Of a stretch of 64,000 nucleotides of DNA, positions 53,849-62,349 are shown one piece after another. Position 1 is the first letter of the stretch, and each line of letters begins with the position of its first letter. Origin of the DNA: Cryobacterium sp. M96 (GTDB taxonomy: Bacteria; Actinomycetota; Actinomycetes; Actinomycetales; Microbacteriaceae); assembly GCF_002929845.1 (NCBI RefSeq), contig NZ_PJJS01000037.1:1-64000 (forward strand), given 5' to 3'. The notes under the pieces are model-generated. The model saw only the letters and a program-made list of their open reading frames with translations. It ran no database searches and was not told the origin of the DNA. A program made the translations under genes and the position numbers.

Positions 53849-55492
53849 TCAGTGCTCGGAGGCCTTCTCGGCGCCGAAGCCGGTCATGGACCGCACGGAC
53901 ATTTCCGCGGCCAGCAGCGGGTCTTCCTTGCGAGTGCTGGTGACCGAGCCGAGCCAGCCCAGGAAGAACCCGATTGGGATGGAGATGATGCCGGGGTTGC
54001 TCAGAGGGAACCAGGCGAAGTTGACGTCTGCACCGAACATCGACGTCTCCGTGCCGGAGAAGACCGGCGAGAAGATGATCAGACCGACGGTGACCGCAAG
54101 GCCGCCGTACATGCTCCACACGGCGCCGCGGGTGGTGAAGCCGCGCCAGAAGAGCGAGTACAGGATGGTCGGCAGGTTGGCGCTCGCCGCGACGGCGAAG
54201 GCCAGGGCCACCAGGAAGGCGATGTTCTGCCCCTGCACGCCGATGCCGCCGGCGATCGAGAGGATGCCGATGATGACGACGGTACGACGTGCGACCTTGA
54301 CCTCGGCGTCGGGGTCACCCTTGCCCTTCTTGATCACGCTCATGTAGATGTCGTGAGCGAAGGAGGTCGCGGCGGTGATCGTGATCCCGGCCACCACGGC
54401 CAGGATCGTGGCGAACGCAATGGCCGAGATGAAGCCGAGCAGCAGCGGTCCGCCGAGCGCGAGGGAGAGCAGCGGCGCGGCCGAGTTCACTCCGCCGGGA
54501 GCGGCGAGGATGACATCTGCTCCGACGAGCGCGGCGGCACCGAAGCCGAGCACCAGCGTGAACAGATAGAACGCACCGATCAGCCAGATCGCCCAGACGA
54601 CCGAGCGACGGGCTTCCTTGGCGCTGGGCACCGTGTAGAAGCGCATCAACACGTGCGGCAGGCCCGCGGTGCCGAGCACCAGGGCGATGGCGAGCGAGAC
54701 GAAGTCGAGCGGGTTCTCGCCGTATTTCAGGCCGGGCACCAGGATGGCGTCGGCCGGCACACTCGTCGAGGCGGCGATGGCCGAGTCGAGAAGCGCCGAG
54801 AAGTTGAAGCCGTTGATGGCCAGCACCCAGACGGTCATCGCGAATGCGCCGATGATGAGCAGGAACGCCTTGATGATCTGCACCCAGGTGGTGCCCTTCA
54901 TGCCACCGATGAGCACGTACATGATCATCAGGCCGCCGACCACGGTGACCACGACGGACTGCCCGACCTTGTCGTTGATGCCGAGGAGCAGCGACACGAG
55001 GCCGCCGGCTCCGGCCATCTGGGCGAGGAGGTAGAAGAAGCAGACGGCAAGGGTGGTCGTCGCCGCGGCCACGCGCACGGGACCCTGACGCAGGCGGAAG
55101 GAGAGCACATCCGCCATGGTGTACTTGCCGGTGTTGCGCATGAGCTCGGCCACCAGCAGCAGGGCGACGAGCCAGGCCACGAGGAAGCCGATCGAGTACA
55201 GGAAGCCGTCGTAACCGCTGACCGCGATCGCCCCGACGATGCCGAGGAACGACGCCGCGGAGAGGTAGTCGCCGGCGATGGCGAACCCGTTCTGCGGGCC
55301 GGTGAAGGACCGGCCGCCGGTGTAGTAGTCGGCCGCGGTCTTGTTGTTGCGCCCGGCGCGAATGACGACGATCAGGGTGACCGCCACGAAAGCGAGGAAG
55401 ATCGAGATGTTCAGCACGGGGTTGTTTTCCGCGGGTTCGACGGCTTGGGCCAGGCGGCCCGGCAGGGACTGCAGAATGCTGGTTGCGATCAT
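53849..55492 (-). CDS. actP: acetate/propionate-type sodium:solute symporter ActP
   Basis: A 547-residue SSS-family cation:monocarboxylate symporter with 13 predicted helices. Family features are AADYYTGGRSFTGPQNGFAI, AGDYLSAASFLGIVG, MRNTGKYTMADVLSFRLRQ, KGTTWVQIIKAFLLIIGA and TAGLPHVLMRFYTVPSAKEA. E. coli ActP carries acetate, and relatives carry propionate. Its ATG overlaps the stop of the DUF485 gene (ATGA), the usual arrangement. Because the same transcript direction starts with prpE, propionate is a likely substrate here. A strong hairpin follows the stop codon. Confidence 0.95.
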   Translation of the reverse strand: MIATSILQSLPGRLAQAVEPAENNPVLNISIFLAFVAVTLIVVIRAGRNNKTAADYYTGGRSFTGPQNGFAIAGDYLSAASFLGIVGAIAVSGYDGFLYSIGFLVAWLVALLLVAELMRNTGKYTMADVLSFRLRQGPVRVAAATTTLAVCFFYLLAQMAGAGGLVSLLLGINDKVGQSVVVTVVGGLMIMYVLIGGMKGTTWVQIIKAFLLIIGAFAMTVWVLAINGFNFSALLDSAIAASTSVPADAILVPGLKYGENPLDFVSLAIALVLGTAGLPHVLMRFYTVPSAKEARRSVVWAIWLIGAFYLFTLVLGFGAAALVGADVILAAPGGVNSAAPLLSLALGGPLLLGFISAIAFATILAVVAGITITAATSFAHDIYMSVIKKGKGDPDAEVKVARRTVVIIGILSIAGGIGVQGQNIAFLVALAFAVAASANLPTILYSLFWRGFTTRGAVWSMYGGLAVTVGLIIFSPVFSGTETSMFGADVNFAWFPLSNPGIISIPIGFFLGWLGSVTSTRKEDPLLAAEMSVRSMTGFGAEKASEH

Positions 55493-55848
55493 TTCTTGTC
55501 CATCTCCTCAAGCTCGGCACGCAGCTCGGCCCCGAGGGGGTCGAGACGGCGGTTCGAGTACGACACGTACCACATGGTGATGGCGAAGGTGGTGACGAAC
55601 TGGCCGAGGCCGAGCACCAGTCCGAGGTTGAACTTGCCGAAGACCGGGATTGCCATCACGTCGGGCAGGTAGGCCGCGACGAGCACGAAGGCGAAGTACC
55701 AGATGAAGAAGAAGGCGGCCAGCGGCAGCACGAACCCGCGGCGCTGCTTCTTCAGCTGGATGAACTTCGGCGTCTTCTCATACGCGATGTAGTCGATGGT
55801 GGACGGTTTTACTCCGTCCGGGAGTTTGTCTTTCAGTGATTCCGCCAT
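55489..55848 (-). CDS. DUF485 membrane protein (symporter partner)
   Basis: A 119-residue DUF485 protein with two membrane helices (FVLPLAAFFFIWYFAFVLVA and GLVLGLGQFVTTFAITMWYV). SNRRLDPLGAELRAELEEMD forms a charged C-terminal helix. DUF485 genes accompany actP-type symporters nearly always and are presumed accessory subunits. AAAGGAG precedes the ATG by 6 nt. The stop overlaps actP. It lies 78 bp downstream of prpE on the same strand, so the three genes may be cotranscribed. Confidence 0.92.
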   Translation of the reverse strand: MAESLKDKLPDGVKPSTIDYIAYEKTPKFIQLKKQRRGFVLPLAAFFFIWYFAFVLVAAYLPDVMAIPVFGKFNLGLVLGLGQFVTTFAITMWYVSYSNRRLDPLGAELRAELEEMDKK

Positions 55849-55926: not shown

Positions 55927-57861
55927 TCAGGCGTTCGGGCCGACTCCATGCACGGCCTGCTTGAGGGCGTCGAGAACCGTGGGATCCTCGATCGTCGGCG
56001 GTACGGTGTAGGCCTCGCCATCGACGATCTGCCGGATGGTCTTGCGGAGAATCTTCCCCGACCGGGTCTTCGGCAGCCTGTCCAGGATGGTCACGTCTCG
56101 GAACGCGGCCACCGGCCCGACATGCTCCCGCACCAGCGCGATGAGCTCTGCGCCGAGAGTGTCGTGGTCGATCGTGGCCCCGGACTTGAGCGTGACGAAG
56201 CCGGCCGCGCGCTGCCCCTTGAGAGGGTCGCGCACGCCGAGCACCGCGCACTCGGCGACCGCGGGGTGCAGGGTGAGCACCTCCTCGAGCGAGCCGGTGG
56301 ACAGTCGGTGCCCGGCAACGTTGATCACGTCGTCGGTGCGGCCCATCACATAGAGGTAGCCGTCCTCGTCGAAGTGGCCGGAATCTCCGGTGGCGTAGAA
56401 GCCGGGGAAAGCCGACAGGTAGGAGCTTTCGAAGCGGTCTTCGCTGCCCCAGATCCCGAGCAGGGCGCCGGGCGGCAGCGGGAGGCGGATGGCGATGTTG
56501 CCGTCCTTGCCGGCCTTCGTGACCGGCTTGGCCTGGGAATCGAGGATGGCGATGTCGTAGCCGGGGACCGGGAACGTGGCCGAGCCCGGTTTCGTCGGGA
56601 TGTCGGCGATGCCCCGCGGGTTCGCGCAGATCGCCCAGCCGGTCTCGGTCTGCCACCAGTGATCGACCACCGGGCAGTGCAGCCCGTCATTGGCCCAGTG
56701 GTATGTCTCCGGGTCGAGGCGTTCGCCGGCCAGGAACAGCCCGTGCAGGCTCTGGATGTCGTGCCCCGCCAGTTCGACCAGGTCAGGGTCGACGCGGCGG
56801 ATGGCACGGATGGCCGTGGGCGCCGTGAACAGGACTGACACCTGGTAGTCCTCCACCACGCGCCAGAACGCCCCGGCATCCGGGGTGCCGACCGGTTTGC
56901 CCTCATAGATGACCGTGGTGGCGCCGACCAGCAGCGGGGCATAGACGATGTAGGAGTGGCCGACCACCCAGCCGACGTCAGAGGCCGCCCAGAAGACGTC
57001 GCCGGGCTTGACGTTGTAGATGTTGGCCATCGACCAGGCCAGCGCCACGGCGTGGCCGCCGTTGTCGCGGACGATCCCCTTCGGATTGCCGGTCGTTCCG
57101 GAGGTGTACAGGATGTAGAGCGGGTCGTCGGAGCGAAGGCTGATCGGCGCGGCCGGGGAGGCCTCGTTCTCCTCGTGGGCCCAGTCCAGCCAGGCCACGT
57201 CGCTGGTGCCGGCGTAGTCGGCGGCGCAGCCGGGGACCATCTCCCGGTCGCGCACGATGACGGTGTGCACCGAGCCCTTGCTGCGAGCGAGGGCGCGTTC
57301 GACCAGAGGCAGGTATTCGACCGCCCGGCCCGGTTCGAGGCCGCCGGAGGCGGTCACGATCACGGTCGGTCGCGCATCGTCGATCCGCACGGCGAGCTCG
57401 CTGGCTGCGAAGCCGCCGAAGACGACGGAGTGGATGGCGCCGATGCGGGCACACGCCAGCATGGCGACGATGGCTTCCGGGATCATCGGCAGGTAGACGA
57501 TCACCCGGTCGCCCTGGCCGACGCCGCTGGCGCGGAGCACCCCGGCGAAGCGCTCGACGCGTCCCAGAAGTTCGCGGTAGCTCAGGCGCACCCGGGTGCC
57601 GGACATCGCCGAGTCGTAGATGACGGCCGTCTGTTCGCCGCGGCCGGCGAGCACGTGGCGGTCGAGCGCGTTGTAGCTGGTGTTGAGTTCGCCGTCCGGG
57701 AACCAGCGCCAGGCGCCGGGGAAGCGTTCCTCCAGCGCCACCGTCGGCGGAACGGTCCAGTCGATTGCCCGGGCTGCCTGCAGCCAGAACGCCGAACGCG
57801 TGCCGTCATCGATGCTTCTCTGCCACAGGTCGTGATACCCCGCCGAAGCTTTCCCTGACAT
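55927..57861 (-). CDS. prpE: propionyl-CoA synthetase
   Basis: A 644-residue acyl-CoA synthetase of the AMP-forming class. The P-loop-like LYILYTSGTTGNPKGIVRDN, the core WWQTETGW, YATGDSGHFDEDGYLYVMGR and the C-terminal catalytic lysine region LPKTRSGKILRKTIRQI are intact. Details favour PrpE over Acs: the segment DNGGHAVALAWSMANIY followed by FWAASDVGWVVGHSYIVYAP, plus the genomic neighbours prpD, prpB and prpC. GGAGAGG lies about 5 nt before the ATG at 57861; the upstream extension only shadows gntR. It diverges from gntR across an 87-bp operator region. Reaction: propionate + ATP + CoA to propionyl-CoA. Confidence 0.92.
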   Translation of the reverse strand: MSGKASAGYHDLWQRSIDDGTRSAFWLQAARAIDWTVPPTVALEERFPGAWRWFPDGELNTSYNALDRHVLAGRGEQTAVIYDSAMSGTRVRLSYRELLGRVERFAGVLRASGVGQGDRVIVYLPMIPEAIVAMLACARIGAIHSVVFGGFAASELAVRIDDARPTVIVTASGGLEPGRAVEYLPLVERALARSKGSVHTVIVRDREMVPGCAADYAGTSDVAWLDWAHEENEASPAAPISLRSDDPLYILYTSGTTGNPKGIVRDNGGHAVALAWSMANIYNVKPGDVFWAASDVGWVVGHSYIVYAPLLVGATTVIYEGKPVGTPDAGAFWRVVEDYQVSVLFTAPTAIRAIRRVDPDLVELAGHDIQSLHGLFLAGERLDPETYHWANDGLHCPVVDHWWQTETGWAICANPRGIADIPTKPGSATFPVPGYDIAILDSQAKPVTKAGKDGNIAIRLPLPPGALLGIWGSEDRFESSYLSAFPGFYATGDSGHFDEDGYLYVMGRTDDVINVAGHRLSTGSLEEVLTLHPAVAECAVLGVRDPLKGQRAAGFVTLKSGATIDHDTLGAELIALVREHVGPVAAFRDVTILDRLPKTRSGKILRKTIRQIVDGEAYTVPPTIEDPTVLDALKQAVHGVGPNA

Positions 57862-57883
57862 TCGAACCTCTCCGTTGAAGTTC

Positions 57884-57897
57884 CTATGTATACATAG
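57884..57897. promoter_or_regulatory. GntR operator site 1
   Basis: CTATGTATACATAG is a perfect 14-bp palindrome with the core TGTATACA (57887-57894), 23 bp upstream of the prpE start codon. It is AT-rich against a GC-rich background and fits FadR/FCD-type GntR operators. Confidence 0.75.
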
Positions 57898-57945
57898 AAT
57901 TCGTGAAGTCTGGCACATAACCCGCGATAAGGGAATAACATGTGA

Positions 57946-57961
57946 TTTGTGTATACAGAAA
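57946..57961. promoter_or_regulatory. GntR operator site 2
   Basis: TTTGTGTATACAGAAA is palindromic at seven of eight base pairs and contains the same TGTATACA core (57950-57957). It overlaps the GTG start codon of gntR. The two cores are 63 bp apart, about six helical turns. Confidence 0.7.
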
Positions 57962-58665
57962 CCCCAACGACGGGGACCACGGCTCCGGTTCGCGCAAGTG
58001 AACGCGCCTACCGGCAGCTGCGCGGCGAGATTCTCGACGGCCTCCTGGCGCCCGGCACGGGGCTGCTCGAGGTGGAGCAAGCCGCCCGGATCGGGGTGTC
58101 GCGCACCCCTCTGCGCGCGGCGATCGCCCGGCTGATCGCCGACGGTCTGGTGGCCGGCCGCACCGGCCGTGGGTTCATGGTCACCGAGATGAGCGTGGAC
58201 AGAATCGGGGAACTCTACGAGGTGCGACGGGCGTTGGAGGAACACGCCGCCCGGATCGCCGCCGAGCGCCGCGACCCGGCGGTCTTCGAGGCTCTCCGCA
58301 CGCAGTTCCTTGCGGCCCCGGAGCTGCTCCGGCACGGCAAGGCGGGACTACGGCGCTACTACGAGCTGATCGACGAGTTCGACCTGGCCCTCGACGTGGC
58401 CGTGGCGAACCCCTTCCTCGTGGGTGCGCTCGCCGGGGTGCGCACGCACCTCGCCCGCATCCGTCGCCTGGCCCGGGACAACCCGGACCGGCTCCGAAGC
58501 GCCGCCGCCGAGCACCTGCTCATCGTGGACGCCGTTCTGGCGGGCGATTCGTCGCTGGCCGCCCACGCCACGCACGTGCACCTCCACCAGAGCCTCACCA
58601 GCGTTCTCGCGACCCTCCGGGGATCGTCGGCCGTTCCGGCCGACCCATCGCCTCCACCGCGCTGA
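57949..58665 (+). CDS. GntR/FCD-family regulator of the propionate island
   Basis: A 238-residue FadR-type regulator. The winged HTH is RQLRGEILDGLLAPGTGLLE followed by AARIGVSRTPLRAAIARLIA and AGRTGRGFMVTEMS. An FCD ligand domain follows from about residue 80 (YEVRRALEEHAARIAAERR). The usual metal-binding His of the second FCD helix (FHxAL) is replaced by Asp (DEFDLAL), though later His residues remain (EHLLIVDAVLAG, ATHVHLHQS). Ligand sensing may thus differ, with 2-methylcitrate or propionyl-CoA as guesses. The GTG start lies within operator site 2, suggesting autoregulation. prpD starts 60 bp downstream. Confidence 0.88.
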   Translation: MYTETPTTGTTAPVRASERAYRQLRGEILDGLLAPGTGLLEVEQAARIGVSRTPLRAAIARLIADGLVAGRTGRGFMVTEMSVDRIGELYEVRRALEEHAARIAAERRDPAVFEALRTQFLAAPELLRHGKAGLRRYYELIDEFDLALDVAVANPFLVGALAGVRTHLARIRRLARDNPDRLRSAAAEHLLIVDAVLAGDSSLAAHATHVHLHQSLTSVLATLRGSSAVPADPSPPPR

Positions 58666-58674
58666 CCGCACTAT

Positions 58675-58715
58675 TCGAACCAATCGAACCAATCGAACCA
58701 ATCGAACCAATCGAA
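58675..58715. repeat. 9-bp tandem array, 4.5 units
   Basis: TCGAACCAA is repeated four times perfectly from 58675 to 58710, followed by TCGAA. It starts 9 bp after the gntR stop and ends directly at the GAAGGG ribosome binding site of prpD, so it forms the whole gntR-prpD spacer. Confidence 0.92.
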
Positions 58716-58725
58716 GGGATCCACC

Positions 58726-60261
58726 GTGCAGCTCCACCACGTTCGTGTTCACCGCAGCGACGAGAACCTTGCCCGCACCGACCAGCTGGCCTGGAAGATC
58801 GCCGAGGTCGCTTCCGACCCGGTCGGGGTGAGCGACGAGGTGACCGAGATGATCGTCAACCGGGTGATCGACAACGCCGCCGTCGCCGCGGCGTCGCTGA
58901 CCCGGCGCCCGGTGGTGTCGGCCCGCTCGCAGGCGCTGGCGCACCCGCGTTCGTTCAACGGCGTCGGGGCGACCGTGTTCGGTGAGCAGCGCTCCCGCCG
59001 GGTGTCACCTGAGTGGGCGGCCTGGGCCAACGGGGTCGCTGTGCGTGAGCTCGACTACCACGACACGTTCCTCGCCGCCGAGTACTCACACCCCGGCGAC
59101 AACATCCCGCCGGTCGTCGCGGTCGCCCAGCACCTCGCCACCGCCCGCGGATTGACCGGTCGCGACCTCGTGCGCGGCATCGCCACGGGCTACGAGATCC
59201 AGATCGACCTGGTCAAGGGCATCAGCCTGCACGCGCACAAGATCGACCACGTGGCCCACCTCGGCCCGTCGGCGGCCGCCGGCATCGGCACCCTGCTCGG
59301 GCTCGACCCCGAGACCATCTTCCAGGCGGTGGGGCAGGCGCTGCACACCACGACGGCCACCCGGCAGTCCAGGAAGGGCGAGATCTCCAGCTGGAAGGCA
59401 CACGCCCCGGCCTTCGCCGGCAAGATGGCGGTGGAGGCGGTCGACCGCGCGATGCGCGGCGAAACCAGCCCCACCCCGATCTACGAGGGTGAAGACGGCG
59501 TGATCGCCTGGCTGCTCGACGGGCCGGATGCCGCCTACGAGGTGTCGCTGCCGTCGAATGGTGAAGCCAAGCGCGCCATCCTGGACAGCTACACGAAGGA
59601 ACACTCGGCGGAGTATCAGGCGCAGGCGTGGATCGACCTGGCCCGGAAGCTGCACCGGGAGCACCCGGCCCTGTCCGATCCGGCCAACGTCGTATCCGTC
59701 GTCATCCACACCAGCCACCACACCCACTACGTGATCGGCTCGGGCGCGAACGACCCGCAGAAGTACGTCCCCACGGCCAGCCGGGAGACCCTCGACCACT
59801 CCATCCCGTACATCTTCACGGTCGCCCTGCAAGACGGCAGCTGGCACCACGTGGATTCCTACCGGCCCGAACGCGCCGGCCGGGCCGACACGATCGCCCT
59901 CTGGAACAAGGTGACCACCACGGAAGACAGCGAGTGGACCCGCCGGTACCACTCGCTCGACCCGGCCGAGAAGGCCTTCGGCGGTCGAGTCGAGATCGAG
60001 CTCACCGACGGCAGCCGGGTCGTTGACGAGATCGCCGTCGCCGACGCCCATCCGCTCGGCGCGAAGCCATTCGGGCGGGCCGAATACGTGCACAAGTTCC
60101 GCACCCTCGCGGCCGACGTGGTCGAGGAGGGCGAGATCGTGCGCTTCCTCGCCGCGGCCGAACGCCTGCCGCGGCTTGGCGCCGGGGAGCTCGGCCAGCT
60201 CACCATCGTGGGCCGTAACGGGTTGCTCGCCTCACTTCCCACCCCGAACGGAATCTTCTGA
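58726..60261 (+). CDS. prpD: 2-methylcitrate dehydratase PrpD
   Basis: A 511-residue MmgE/PrpD-family enzyme that dehydrates 2-methylcitrate without an iron-sulfur cluster. Typical segments are [20 protein letters not shown] with [18 protein letters not shown], then [19 protein letters not shown] and [10 protein letters not shown]-like [20 protein letters not shown]. Later come [30 protein letters not shown]-like [19 protein letters not shown], and [19 protein letters not shown]. The GTG at 58726 has GAAGGG 10 nt upstream. Its stop overlaps the ATG of prpB (TGATG), so prpD and prpB are coupled. Confidence 0.94.
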
Positions 60262-61172
60262 TGTTGTACTCGAAAGTCAGCCCGGCCGCCAAGCGGGCCG
60301 CGTTCCGCAAGGACCTGGCGAGCGGCCGGCTGCTGCGCTTCCCCGGTGCGTTCAACCCGCTCTCGGCCCGACTGATCGCGGCCAAGGGCTTCGAAGGGGT
60401 GTACATCTCCGGCGCGGTGCTCTCGGCCGACCTGGGTCTGCCCGACATCGGCCTGACCACTCTCACCGAGGTGGCCGGCCGGAGCCAGCAGATCGCCCGG
60501 ATGAGCGACCTGCCCACGATCGTGGACGCCGACACCGGCTTCGGCGAGCCGATGAACGTGGCACGCACGATCCAGACGCTCGAGGATGCCGGCCTGGCCG
60601 GCATGCACATCGAGGACCAGGTCAATCCGAAACGCTGCGGTCACCTCGACGGCAAGCAGGTCGTCGACGACGACACGGCGGCCAAGCGCATCCGGGCGGC
60701 CGTCGACGCCCGGCGCGACCCGAACTTCCTGATCATGGCGCGCACGGACATCCGTGCCGTCGACGGCCTGGCTGCCGCGGTCGACCGGGCGAAGAAGCTC
60801 GTCGACGCCGGGGCCGACGCGATCTTTCCGGAGGCGATGGCATCCCTGGCCGAGTTCGCGGCCATCCGCGCCGCCGTGGACGTGCCGGTGCTGGCGAACA
60901 TGACCGAGTTCGGCAAGGGCGAGCTCTACACGACCCAGCAGCTGGCGGATGTCGGCATGAACATCGTCATCTTCCCGGTGTCCCTGCTGCGCCTCGCGAT
61001 GGGGGCGGCCGAACGCGGCCTCGACACCATCGAGGCGCAGGGCTCACTGACCGGCTTGCTGCCGGAGATGCAGCACCGGGCGAGGCTCTACGAGCTGCTC
61101 GACTACGAGTCGTACAGCCACTTCGATTCCGGCGTCTTCAACTTCACCCTCAACCCGGATGTTGCCTCGTAG
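60261..61172 (+). CDS. prpB: 2-methylisocitrate lyase PrpB
   Basis: A 303-residue lyase of the isocitrate-lyase/PEP-mutase superfamily that splits 2-methylisocitrate into pyruvate and succinate. The catalytic motif is KRCGH (residues 124-128, Cys126). Metal-site segments are IVDADTGFGEPMNVARTI and MHIEDQVNPKRCGH. MARTDIRAVDGLAAAVDRA, FPEAMASLAEF and NMTEFGKGELYTTQQLADVG agree with PrpB and not with isocitrate lyase. It is cytosolic. The ATG overlaps the prpD stop, and prpC follows 46 bp later. Confidence 0.95.
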   Translation: MLYSKVSPAAKRAAFRKDLASGRLLRFPGAFNPLSARLIAAKGFEGVYISGAVLSADLGLPDIGLTTLTEVAGRSQQIARMSDLPTIVDADTGFGEPMNVARTIQTLEDAGLAGMHIEDQVNPKRCGHLDGKQVVDDDTAAKRIRAAVDARRDPNFLIMARTDIRAVDGLAAAVDRAKKLVDAGADAIFPEAMASLAEFAAIRAAVDVPVLANMTEFGKGELYTTQQLADVGMNIVIFPVSLLRLAMGAAERGLDTIEAQGSLTGLLPEMQHRARLYELLDYESYSHFDSGVFNFTLNPDVAS

Positions 61173-61218
61173 CAGCCCGGCCCCGCACGCAGATCCAGTC
61201 TCAACGCAAGGGAGCGAC

Positions 61219-62349
61219 ATGAGTCAGAACGAACCGACCATTTACAAGGGCCTCGCCGGCGTCGTGGTCGACCATACGCAGGTGTCCAAGGTCAACCCCG
61301 AATCGAACTCGCTGCTGTACCGGGGCTACCCGGTGCAGGAACTCGCGGCACAGAAGAGCTTCGAGGAGGTGGCCTACCTGCTCTGGCACGGCGAGTTGCC
61401 GACCGACGTCGAGCTGGGCGAATTCGAAGAGCAGGAACGCTCCCTCCGGCACCTGACTCCTGCGGTGAAGCGCGTCATCGACGAGCTGCCGATGACGGCG
61501 CACCCGATGGACGTCGTGCGCACGGCGGTCAGCCTGATCGGCGCGAACGACCCCGATGCGGCCGACGCGTCGCCGGCGGCCAACCGTGCCAAGGGCCTGC
61601 GGCTCTGGGCCCAGATGCCGGCGATCGTGGCCTACGACCAGCGCCGCCGCCACGGCCTCGAGCTGATCGAACCGCGCAGCGACCTCGGCTACTCGGCCAA
61701 CTTCCTGTTCATGACGTTCGGCGAGGTGCCCGAACTCGTGGTCGTGAACGCGTTCGATGTGTCCATGATCATGTATGCGGAGCACTCCTTCAACGCGTCG
61801 ACGTTCACCGCCCGCGTGATCACCTCGACCCTGTCCGACCTGCACTCCGCGGTCACCGGAGCGATCGGGGCTCTCAAGGGCGCGCTGCACGGCGGGGCGA
61901 ACGAGGCCGTGATGCACATTTTCGACGAAATCGGGCTCGGCCTGGGCGCCGGGAAGCGCGCCGAGGCGTGGCTGAATGAGACCCTCGCCGCAAAGCGGAA
62001 GGTGATGGGCTTCGGCCACCGGGTGTACAAGCACGGGGACTCGCGGGTGCCGACCATGCGCACCGCGCTGGTCACCCTGGTCGAGCATTATGACCGGCCG
62101 GACCTGCTGGAGCTCTACGAATCCCTCGAGGCGGGGATGACGACGCGCACCGGCATCCTGCCCAACCTGGACTACCCGTCGGGACCGGCGTACAACCTGA
62201 TGGGATTCGACACCCTCACTTTCACGCCGATCTTCGTCGCGGCGCGACTGACCGGGTGGACCGCGCACATCATCGAGCAGACCGCATCGAATGCCCTGAT
62301 CCGGCCGCTCTCGCTCTATAACGGCCACGAGGAGCGGCACCTGGCCTGA
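61219..62349 (+). CDS. prpC: 2-methylcitrate synthase
   Basis: A 376-residue short-form citrate synthase homologue. Catalytic residues are the His in LKGALHGGANEAVMHIFDEI, the His in GFGHRVYKHGDSRVP and the Asp in GFDTLTFTPIFVAARLTG. The length of about 375 residues fits 2-methylcitrate synthase, not the long type I citrate synthase. Context (prpD, prpB, prpE) makes propionyl-CoA the likely substrate. The ATG at 61219 is preceded by AAGGGAG. It ends the prpDBC operon; the next gene starts 36 bp further with its own -10. Confidence 0.94.
   Translation: MSQNEPTIYKGLAGVVVDHTQVSKVNPESNSLLYRGYPVQELAAQKSFEEVAYLLWHGELPTDVELGEFEEQERSLRHLTPAVKRVIDELPMTAHPMDVVRTAVSLIGANDPDAADASPAANRAKGLRLWAQMPAIVAYDQRRRHGLELIEPRSDLGYSANFLFMTFGEVPELVVVNAFDVSMIMYAEHSFNASTFTARVITSTLSDLHSAVTGAIGALKGALHGGANEAVMHIFDEIGLGLGAGKRAEAWLNETLAAKRKVMGFGHRVYKHGDSRVPTMRTALVTLVEHYDRPDLLELYESLEAGMTTRTGILPNLDYPSGPAYNLMGFDTLTFTPIFVAARLTGWTAHIIEQTASNALIRPLSLYNGHEERHLA

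Follow-up and report, generated by a model that had tools for sequence, protein, structure and literature searches.

Two palindromes between prpE and gntR

The region between the divergent prpE and gntR genes of the window (the whole 64-kb stretch of DNA that was analysed) contains two palindromes with a common core, which raises the question of whether the adjacent GntR-family regulator holds both sites together or whether each site serves its own gene. The features concerned are the following:

53849-55492, minus strand, mctC, monocarboxylic acid transporter (SSF family; mctC/actP-like); NCBIfam NF058657, 868.9 bits, cut-off 670
55489-55848, minus strand, DUF485 membrane protein
55927-57861, minus strand, prpE, acyl-CoA ligase; propionate-CoA ligase models fit best, yet below their cut-offs
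57884-57897, putative operator site 1, CTATGTATACATAG; core 57887-57894, perfect 14-bp palindrome
57911-57916, plus strand, candidate -35, TGGCAC; weak, spacer 19 bp
57936-57941, plus strand, candidate -10 of gntR, TAACAT
57946-57961, putative operator site 2, TTTGTGTATACAGAAA; core 57950-57957, perfect 8-bp core
57949-58665, plus strand, gntR, 238 aa, GTG start; Pfam GntR 1.6e-13, FCD 2.1e-20
58726-60261, plus strand, prpD, 2-methylcitrate dehydratase; NF042438, 840.5 bits, cut-off 950
60261-61172, plus strand, prpB, methylisocitrate lyase; TIGR02317, above cut-off
61216-62349, plus strand, prpC, 2-methylcitrate synthase/citrate synthase; NF010636, above cut-off

The gntR product is composed of an N-terminal wHTH and a C-terminal FCD domain, both above the Pfam gathering scores, and its gene adjoins prpD, prpB and prpC, as for a methylcitrate-cycle repressor. 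MctC, PrpB and PrpC passed their curated cut-offs; the names of PrpE and PrpD are those of best hits below theirs. Among 80 named loci, prpD was found downstream of gntR in 79. In the window, a perfect 9-bp tandem repeat, TCGAACCAA (58675-58715, 4.6 copies), takes up the greater part of the DNA that separates gntR from prpD; among ten other loci of the same genus, some carry partial or diverged copies and several carry none.

The core TGTATACA was found exactly twice in the window, at 57887-57894 and 57950-57957, with an expectation from shuffled sequences of 0.01 per window and two copies in none of 100 shuffles. The GT...AC palindromic core expected of GntR/FCD operators is present upstream of the cognate gntR in this form, and site 1 contains the 10-mer ATGTATACAT, the sequence bound by Atu1419. 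The core centres lie at 57890.5 and 57953.5, so that the distance of 63 bp given in the preliminary description, six turns at 10.5 bp, is borne out. Its statement that two palindromes share one core stands for the cores, both of which are perfect, but not for the full 16 bp of site 2, where the flank has one broken pair (G against G). The positions that it gave, one site near prpE and the other over the gntR start codon, were found as described: there are 22 bp between the site 1 palindrome and the start codon of prpE, which is at 57861 on the minus strand, and site 2 overlaps the GTG at 57949-57951, which is the sole possible ATG, GTG or TTG start of gntR ahead of the HTH. Between the prpE start and the gntR start (plus strand, 57949) there are 87 bp.

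Spacing of the pair at orthologous loci

Named relatives assign the window to the genus Cryobacterium (Microbacteriaceae). Regulator orthologues were found in 54 of 57 genomes of the genus, 66 of 150 of the family and 35 of 149 of the order, these samples overlapping. They gave a first set of 145 distinct loci, two rows (L099, with the place and genome of L036, and L176, with the place of L141) having been dropped before the counts; the second match of G039 and five order-level matches were left out. A second set, from another collection and found after the spacing rule had been noticed, comprised 64 named loci (80 fetched, 16 duplicates dropped). A pair was defined as two TGTATACA-type cores with at most one mismatch in each.

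The results showed that the pair is present at 179 of the 209 gntR-orthologue loci (118/145 in the first set and 61/64 in the second), and that all 54 same-genus loci carry a site 1 core (at most one mismatch) paired with site 2. At 118 loci, the upstream region of the orthologue contained 1.9 cores with at most one mismatch, compared with 0.06 in mononucleotide shuffles. The spacing was 52 bp in 57 pairs, 53 bp in 5, 62 bp in 25, 63 bp in 77, 64 bp in 7 and 73 bp in 4, with 74, 75, 76 and 84 bp once each, which forms classes of 52-53 bp (n = 62), 62-64 bp (n = 109), 73-76 bp (n = 7) and 84 bp (n = 1); none of the 179 pairs was spaced by 54-61, 65-72 or 77-83 bp. Altogether 177 of the 179 lie within 1 bp of five, six, seven or eight turns at 10.5 bp, against about 25% for evenly spread spacings. 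The two off-phase pairs, at L180 (76 bp) and L236 (75 bp), were kept in the counts, as was the 84-bp pair at L207. Three loci with more than two sites were counted once each: L198 (three sites; 52 and 71 bp) as 52, L196 (three sites; 63 and 85 bp) as 63, and L244 (four sites; 53 and 63 bp) as 63.

Outside the genus, the identity of the DNA between the sites was 0.30-0.35, against 0.25-0.26 in shuffled sequence, and since this is near chance, it is the length that has been kept and not the letters. The phase of the pair spacing there gave R = 0.95 (n = 125). As an internal control, the length of DNA between site 1 and the start of prpE gave R = 0.34 outside the genus (n = 13) and 0.61 inside, where the sequences are alike. 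Because the loci are related, the raw counts make them look more independent than they are; parsimony on a quick protein tree gave about 20 switches of turn class, and for 18 of 20 falling in phase a rough binomial estimate, which depends on that tree and on parsimony, is about 1e-9.

We also searched for the DNA pattern without reference to the regulator, at spacings of 42-72 bp. Matches, not all at places confirmed to be beside gntR, were found in 60 of 299 family genomes, and within this range 59 of the 60 had a spacing of 52, 53, 62, 63 or 64 bp. The exact pair was present in 6 of 394 genomes of the class sample, three of the six outside the family. A spacing of 47 bp was found by the DNA-only search in three matching family genomes, including the 60th. 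Three genomes belonging to a single genus (L092, L093 and G332:C2:218521-218575) carry two TGTATACA copies 47 bp apart with TGTACA between them; in G135 and G197 this place lies on a different contig from gntR or a long way from it, so that the 47-bp pair probably belongs to a different regulator.

The pair tracks the regulator gene, and its spacing is limited to whole turns while the DNA between the sites drifts. We put at about 0.72 the probability that the two TGTATACA copies are a phase-locked operator pair of the adjacent GntR/FCD protein, which would be co-bound on one face of the DNA, probably by a tetramer with a short loop, and would repress gntR-prpDBC until a methylcitrate-cycle intermediate releases it. 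This comparison of sequences strongly favours what had been proposed from the window alone, that the regulator encoded next to the sites binds them on one helix face, cooperatively or with a loop: the phase is kept in 177 of 179 pairs in spite of changed operator letters and intervening DNA.

Relation of the pair to prpE

In the first set, a divergent prpE lies within 400 bp at 50 of the 54 genus loci and at 15 of the 91 loci outside the genus, where 51 loci have an in-phase pair without divergent prpE (at one of them, L143, 289 bp upstream were covered). For eight of these outside-genus loci without prpE, the longest ORF upstream was assigned to other families, and all eight keep an in-phase pair:

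L038 and L039, ABC-2 membrane protein
L047, LtrA
L051, ABC transporter
L052, Rce1-like
L053, helicase
L054, epimerase
L063, alpha/beta hydrolase

Since the pair is kept beside other genes, it belongs to gntR-prpDBC, with prpE as an added partner. The coordination of the prpE side with prpDBC that the preliminary description suggested is plausible in Cryobacterium, given its many divergent prpE genes, but it is not the general role of the pair, as the 51 outside loci show. A missing prpE does not prove a missing divergent promoter.

These data bear on the possibility of two independent operators, in which a dimer at site 1 would serve prpE and site 2 would serve gntR-prpDBC with no mutual contact. 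Such an arrangement would suit the position of site 1 near prpE and of site 2 at the gntR start, the frequent divergent prpE of Cryobacterium, and the operon-specific double sites of GntR divergons described in the available text of a comparative study (PMC4494728). Independent operators, however, need no phase, whereas nearly every pair is in phase, and they do not account for the pair being kept where no prpE is adjacent; we consider them unlikely.

With regard to the turn number, five-turn spacing was found at none of 78 loci with divergent prpE and at 62 of 101 without (Fisher p about 2e-21, a value that ignores ancestry). An independent-contrast test of prpE against turn number pointed to the same relation and gave no contrary case, yet the contrasts were too few for significance. 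A tentative extension of the phase-locked pair, which we hold to be possible, is a modular loop cassette in which the FCD repressor requires rotational phase only and the promoters between the sites set the turn number, five turns enclosing one promoter and six or more enclosing a second, divergent one of prpE. Consistent with this, the divergent ORF at L105, a seven-turn locus without prpE, contains the first part of a symporter-family domain; the divergent ORF of the seven-turn Cryobacterium locus L109 had no Pfam match.

Natural changes of distance and of operator letters

Two loci of the genus, L105 and L109, have a spacing of 73 bp, compared with 62 bp in their tree neighbours; 11 extra bp lie between site 1 and the promoter, apparently by tandem duplication. 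The L109 regulator matches that of L106 (62 bp) at 221 of 231 residues, and the L105 regulator does so at 192 of 220. These loci are informative about a rigid protein ruler, that is, a stiff tetramer that would bind only at a set distance and form no loop. For BusR, a GntR-family tetramer, the available part of the report describes a required separation of 22 bp, with binding abolished by adding 5 or removing 10 bp (PMC8517857). The use of five, six, seven and eight turns argues against a BusR-type rigid ruler, for which a single distance would be permitted, and the closely related regulators of L106 and L109 indicate that phase matters and distance much less, so that this explanation seems very improbable.

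The letters of the operator have also changed. In a clade of the same order (L158, L162, L163, L164, L166, L171 and L175), the operators read TGCATGCA at 52, 53 or 64 bp, with two exact copies at six loci and one at L162; this clade changed its operator letters yet kept the spacing rule. At L173, GGTATACC cores stand 52 bp apart. Because the recognition helix of the TGCATGCA clade differs at several positions while its SRTP core is unchanged, we claim no specificity residue.

At one mismatch per core, 30 of the 209 loci lack the pair (27 in the first set, 3 in the second). At thirteen loci that have one core only, a partner with two mismatches stands 52 or 53 bp from it. In the first set, looser or variant motifs gave no in-phase pair at L129, L134, L135, L149, L151 and L154, of which L129 and L135 have three sites at other distances; in the second set, the loci without a pair at no more than one mismatch per core are L208, L225 and L235.

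Additional copies were observed at some loci. A third TGTATACA stands 22-25 bp from another site at L040, L043, L044, L129, L135 and L196, which suggests that a further dimer may be bound there. L244 (Arthrobacter) has, beside its 63-bp pair, an extra TGTATACA pair of 53 bp further upstream, near positions -268 and -215 relative to the start of gntR. Three loci, L228, L249 and L255, are titled Acidobacteria bacterium, Stenotrophomonas maltophilia and Vibrio cholerae, respectively; they are gntR-prp loci with a regulator 49-56% identical to that of the window, and are probably contaminating actinobacterial contigs.

Occurrence elsewhere in the genome

Five exact copies of TGTATACA were counted in the 3.3-Mb genome, and two of a control pattern. 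The genome scan for further palindromes that the preliminary description had proposed turned up three exact cores outside the pair, each inside an open reading frame (including frames of 537 and 131 aa), and across the 3.3 Mb there was no excess of one-mismatch copies (121 vs 131 for the control). The pair is thus specific to the gntR/prp place. A genome-wide regulon was rejected on these counts.

The palindromes could also be those of another regulator or of a nucleoid protein, merely standing beside gntR, and TGTATACA does fit the general FCD-type core as given in the accessible text of the divergon study (PMC4494728). Against this, the pair accompanies gntR across families and varied neighbours, and the remaining exact cores of the genome are inside reading frames; this origin of the sites has very little probability. 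Chance palindromes, or common ancestry without function, would draw on the 54 related and much alike genus sequences, but with 0.01 copies expected and with length and cores kept outside the genus where the intervening DNA is near random, they can be dismissed.

Candidate promoters and proposed mechanism

A strict scan of the prpE–gntR intergenic region gave no match to a sigma70-like promoter, and no clear prpE promoter was recognised. TANNNT stands at -14 or -13 from the site 2 core at 53 of the 54 same-genus loci, and the candidate -10 at 57936-57941 would place the gntR transcript start near the GTG, giving a leaderless mRNA. At the position of the weak candidate -35, many relatives have TTGCAT or TTGCAC, and a TTGCA block is conserved in the genus alignment. 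Outside Cryobacterium, no shared promoter motif was found between the sites and none was confidently recognised.

In the proposed mechanism of the phase-locked pair, the two sites would be occupied from one side of the DNA by two dimers, most likely of one tetramer, and the 52-84 bp between the sites would form a small loop. This loop would enclose the promoter of gntR-prpDBC and, at Cryobacterium loci, that of the divergent prpE as well. With the predicted transcript start at about the GTG, site 2 would also block the gntR promoter directly. Transcription would stay repressed until 2-methylcitrate or 2-methylisocitrate frees the regulator, an effector that we infer from Pseudomonas PrpR (PA0797) as described in the available portion of its report (PMC9765439). 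The LacR loop series in the accessible text covers 57.5-155.5 bp (PMC1762422); a 52-bp loop is tighter than these and may therefore depend on assisted bending or on direct contact.

Comparison with known systems

The monomer model of the gntR product had a mean pLDDT of 88.6, and in the fold search two chains of the Brucella GntR protein 7u5q ranked first and PmiR third, with Atu1419 and AlkR (VanR) also high. The model has about seven main effector-domain helices after the wing; VanR-type FCD regulators have six rather than seven. PmiR was the best PDB sequence hit (6.3e-20), and its fold match gave TMq 0.70-0.71 at about 30% identity.

PmiR of Pseudomonas aeruginosa, which we take to be the same protein as PrpR (PA0797), is a GntR/FCD regulator of methylcitrate-cycle genes (PDB 7xp0, 7xp1), the role predicted for the protein of the window. 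In the available part of its report, PrpR represses the prp/methylcitrate genes with 2-methylcitrate proposed as effector, and a palindrome, ATTGTCGACAAT, is predicted at one site 84 bp upstream of prpR (PMC9765439). It differs in this single predicted site, and that part of the paper reports no phase-locked pair (PMC9765439). Atu1419 (VanR, Agrobacterium fabrum; 6z74, 6za0, 6za3, 6za7) shares the FCD domain, the fold and the bound sequence ATGTATACAT and, according to the portion of the paper available, is a tetramer that can bind two palindromes, with DNA looping seen between sites 190 bp apart (PMC7797058). Two cognate palindromes per regulatory region, an Atu1419-type feature, are present in the window and at the 179 loci described above. 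Atu1419 differs from the putative prp regulator in that it controls a region for the degradation of hydroxycinnamic acids; 190 bp separate its sites, with a degenerate one at 109 bp, and the accessible text reports no spacing rule (PMC7797058).

BusR of Streptococcus agalactiae is likewise a GntR-family tetramer with two sites on one DNA face, but in the sections available it responds to c-di-AMP and has one fixed 22-bp gap, a deletion of 10 bp abolishing binding (PMC8517857). The GntR divergons described in 2015 resemble our pair in their cooperative double sites at a roughly constant distance, found by comparative genomics in the FadR and HutC subfamilies; the part of that report at hand contains neither whole-turn steps nor pairs kept without a divergent operon (PMC4494728). 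In a full-text search of the open-licence PMC literature, we recognised no description of a propionate GntR/FCD system with operators spaced by whole turns.

The Lac repressor belongs to a different protein family. What is known of operators in helical phase comes mostly from engineered lac constructs and from individual cases. In the accessible text on the Lac repressor, two operators give phase-dependent repression as in the arrangement proposed here, but the spacings were engineered, not natural (PMC1762422). Here, natural variation over actinobacterial families amounts to a phasing experiment with 179 data points, in which the phase was kept, the distance shifted by whole turns and the operator letters were replaced in one clade, a pattern suggesting that a common class of repressors binds cooperatively. 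Whole-turn spacing offers a simple rule for finding operator pairs, and the methylcitrate cycle of Microbacteriaceae and their relatives gains a defined, putative regulatory switch. Compared with the systems above, what appears to be new, as read from the genomes, is that the twin operators of a putative FCD repressor are phase-locked and stand at distances that change from locus to locus by whole turns.
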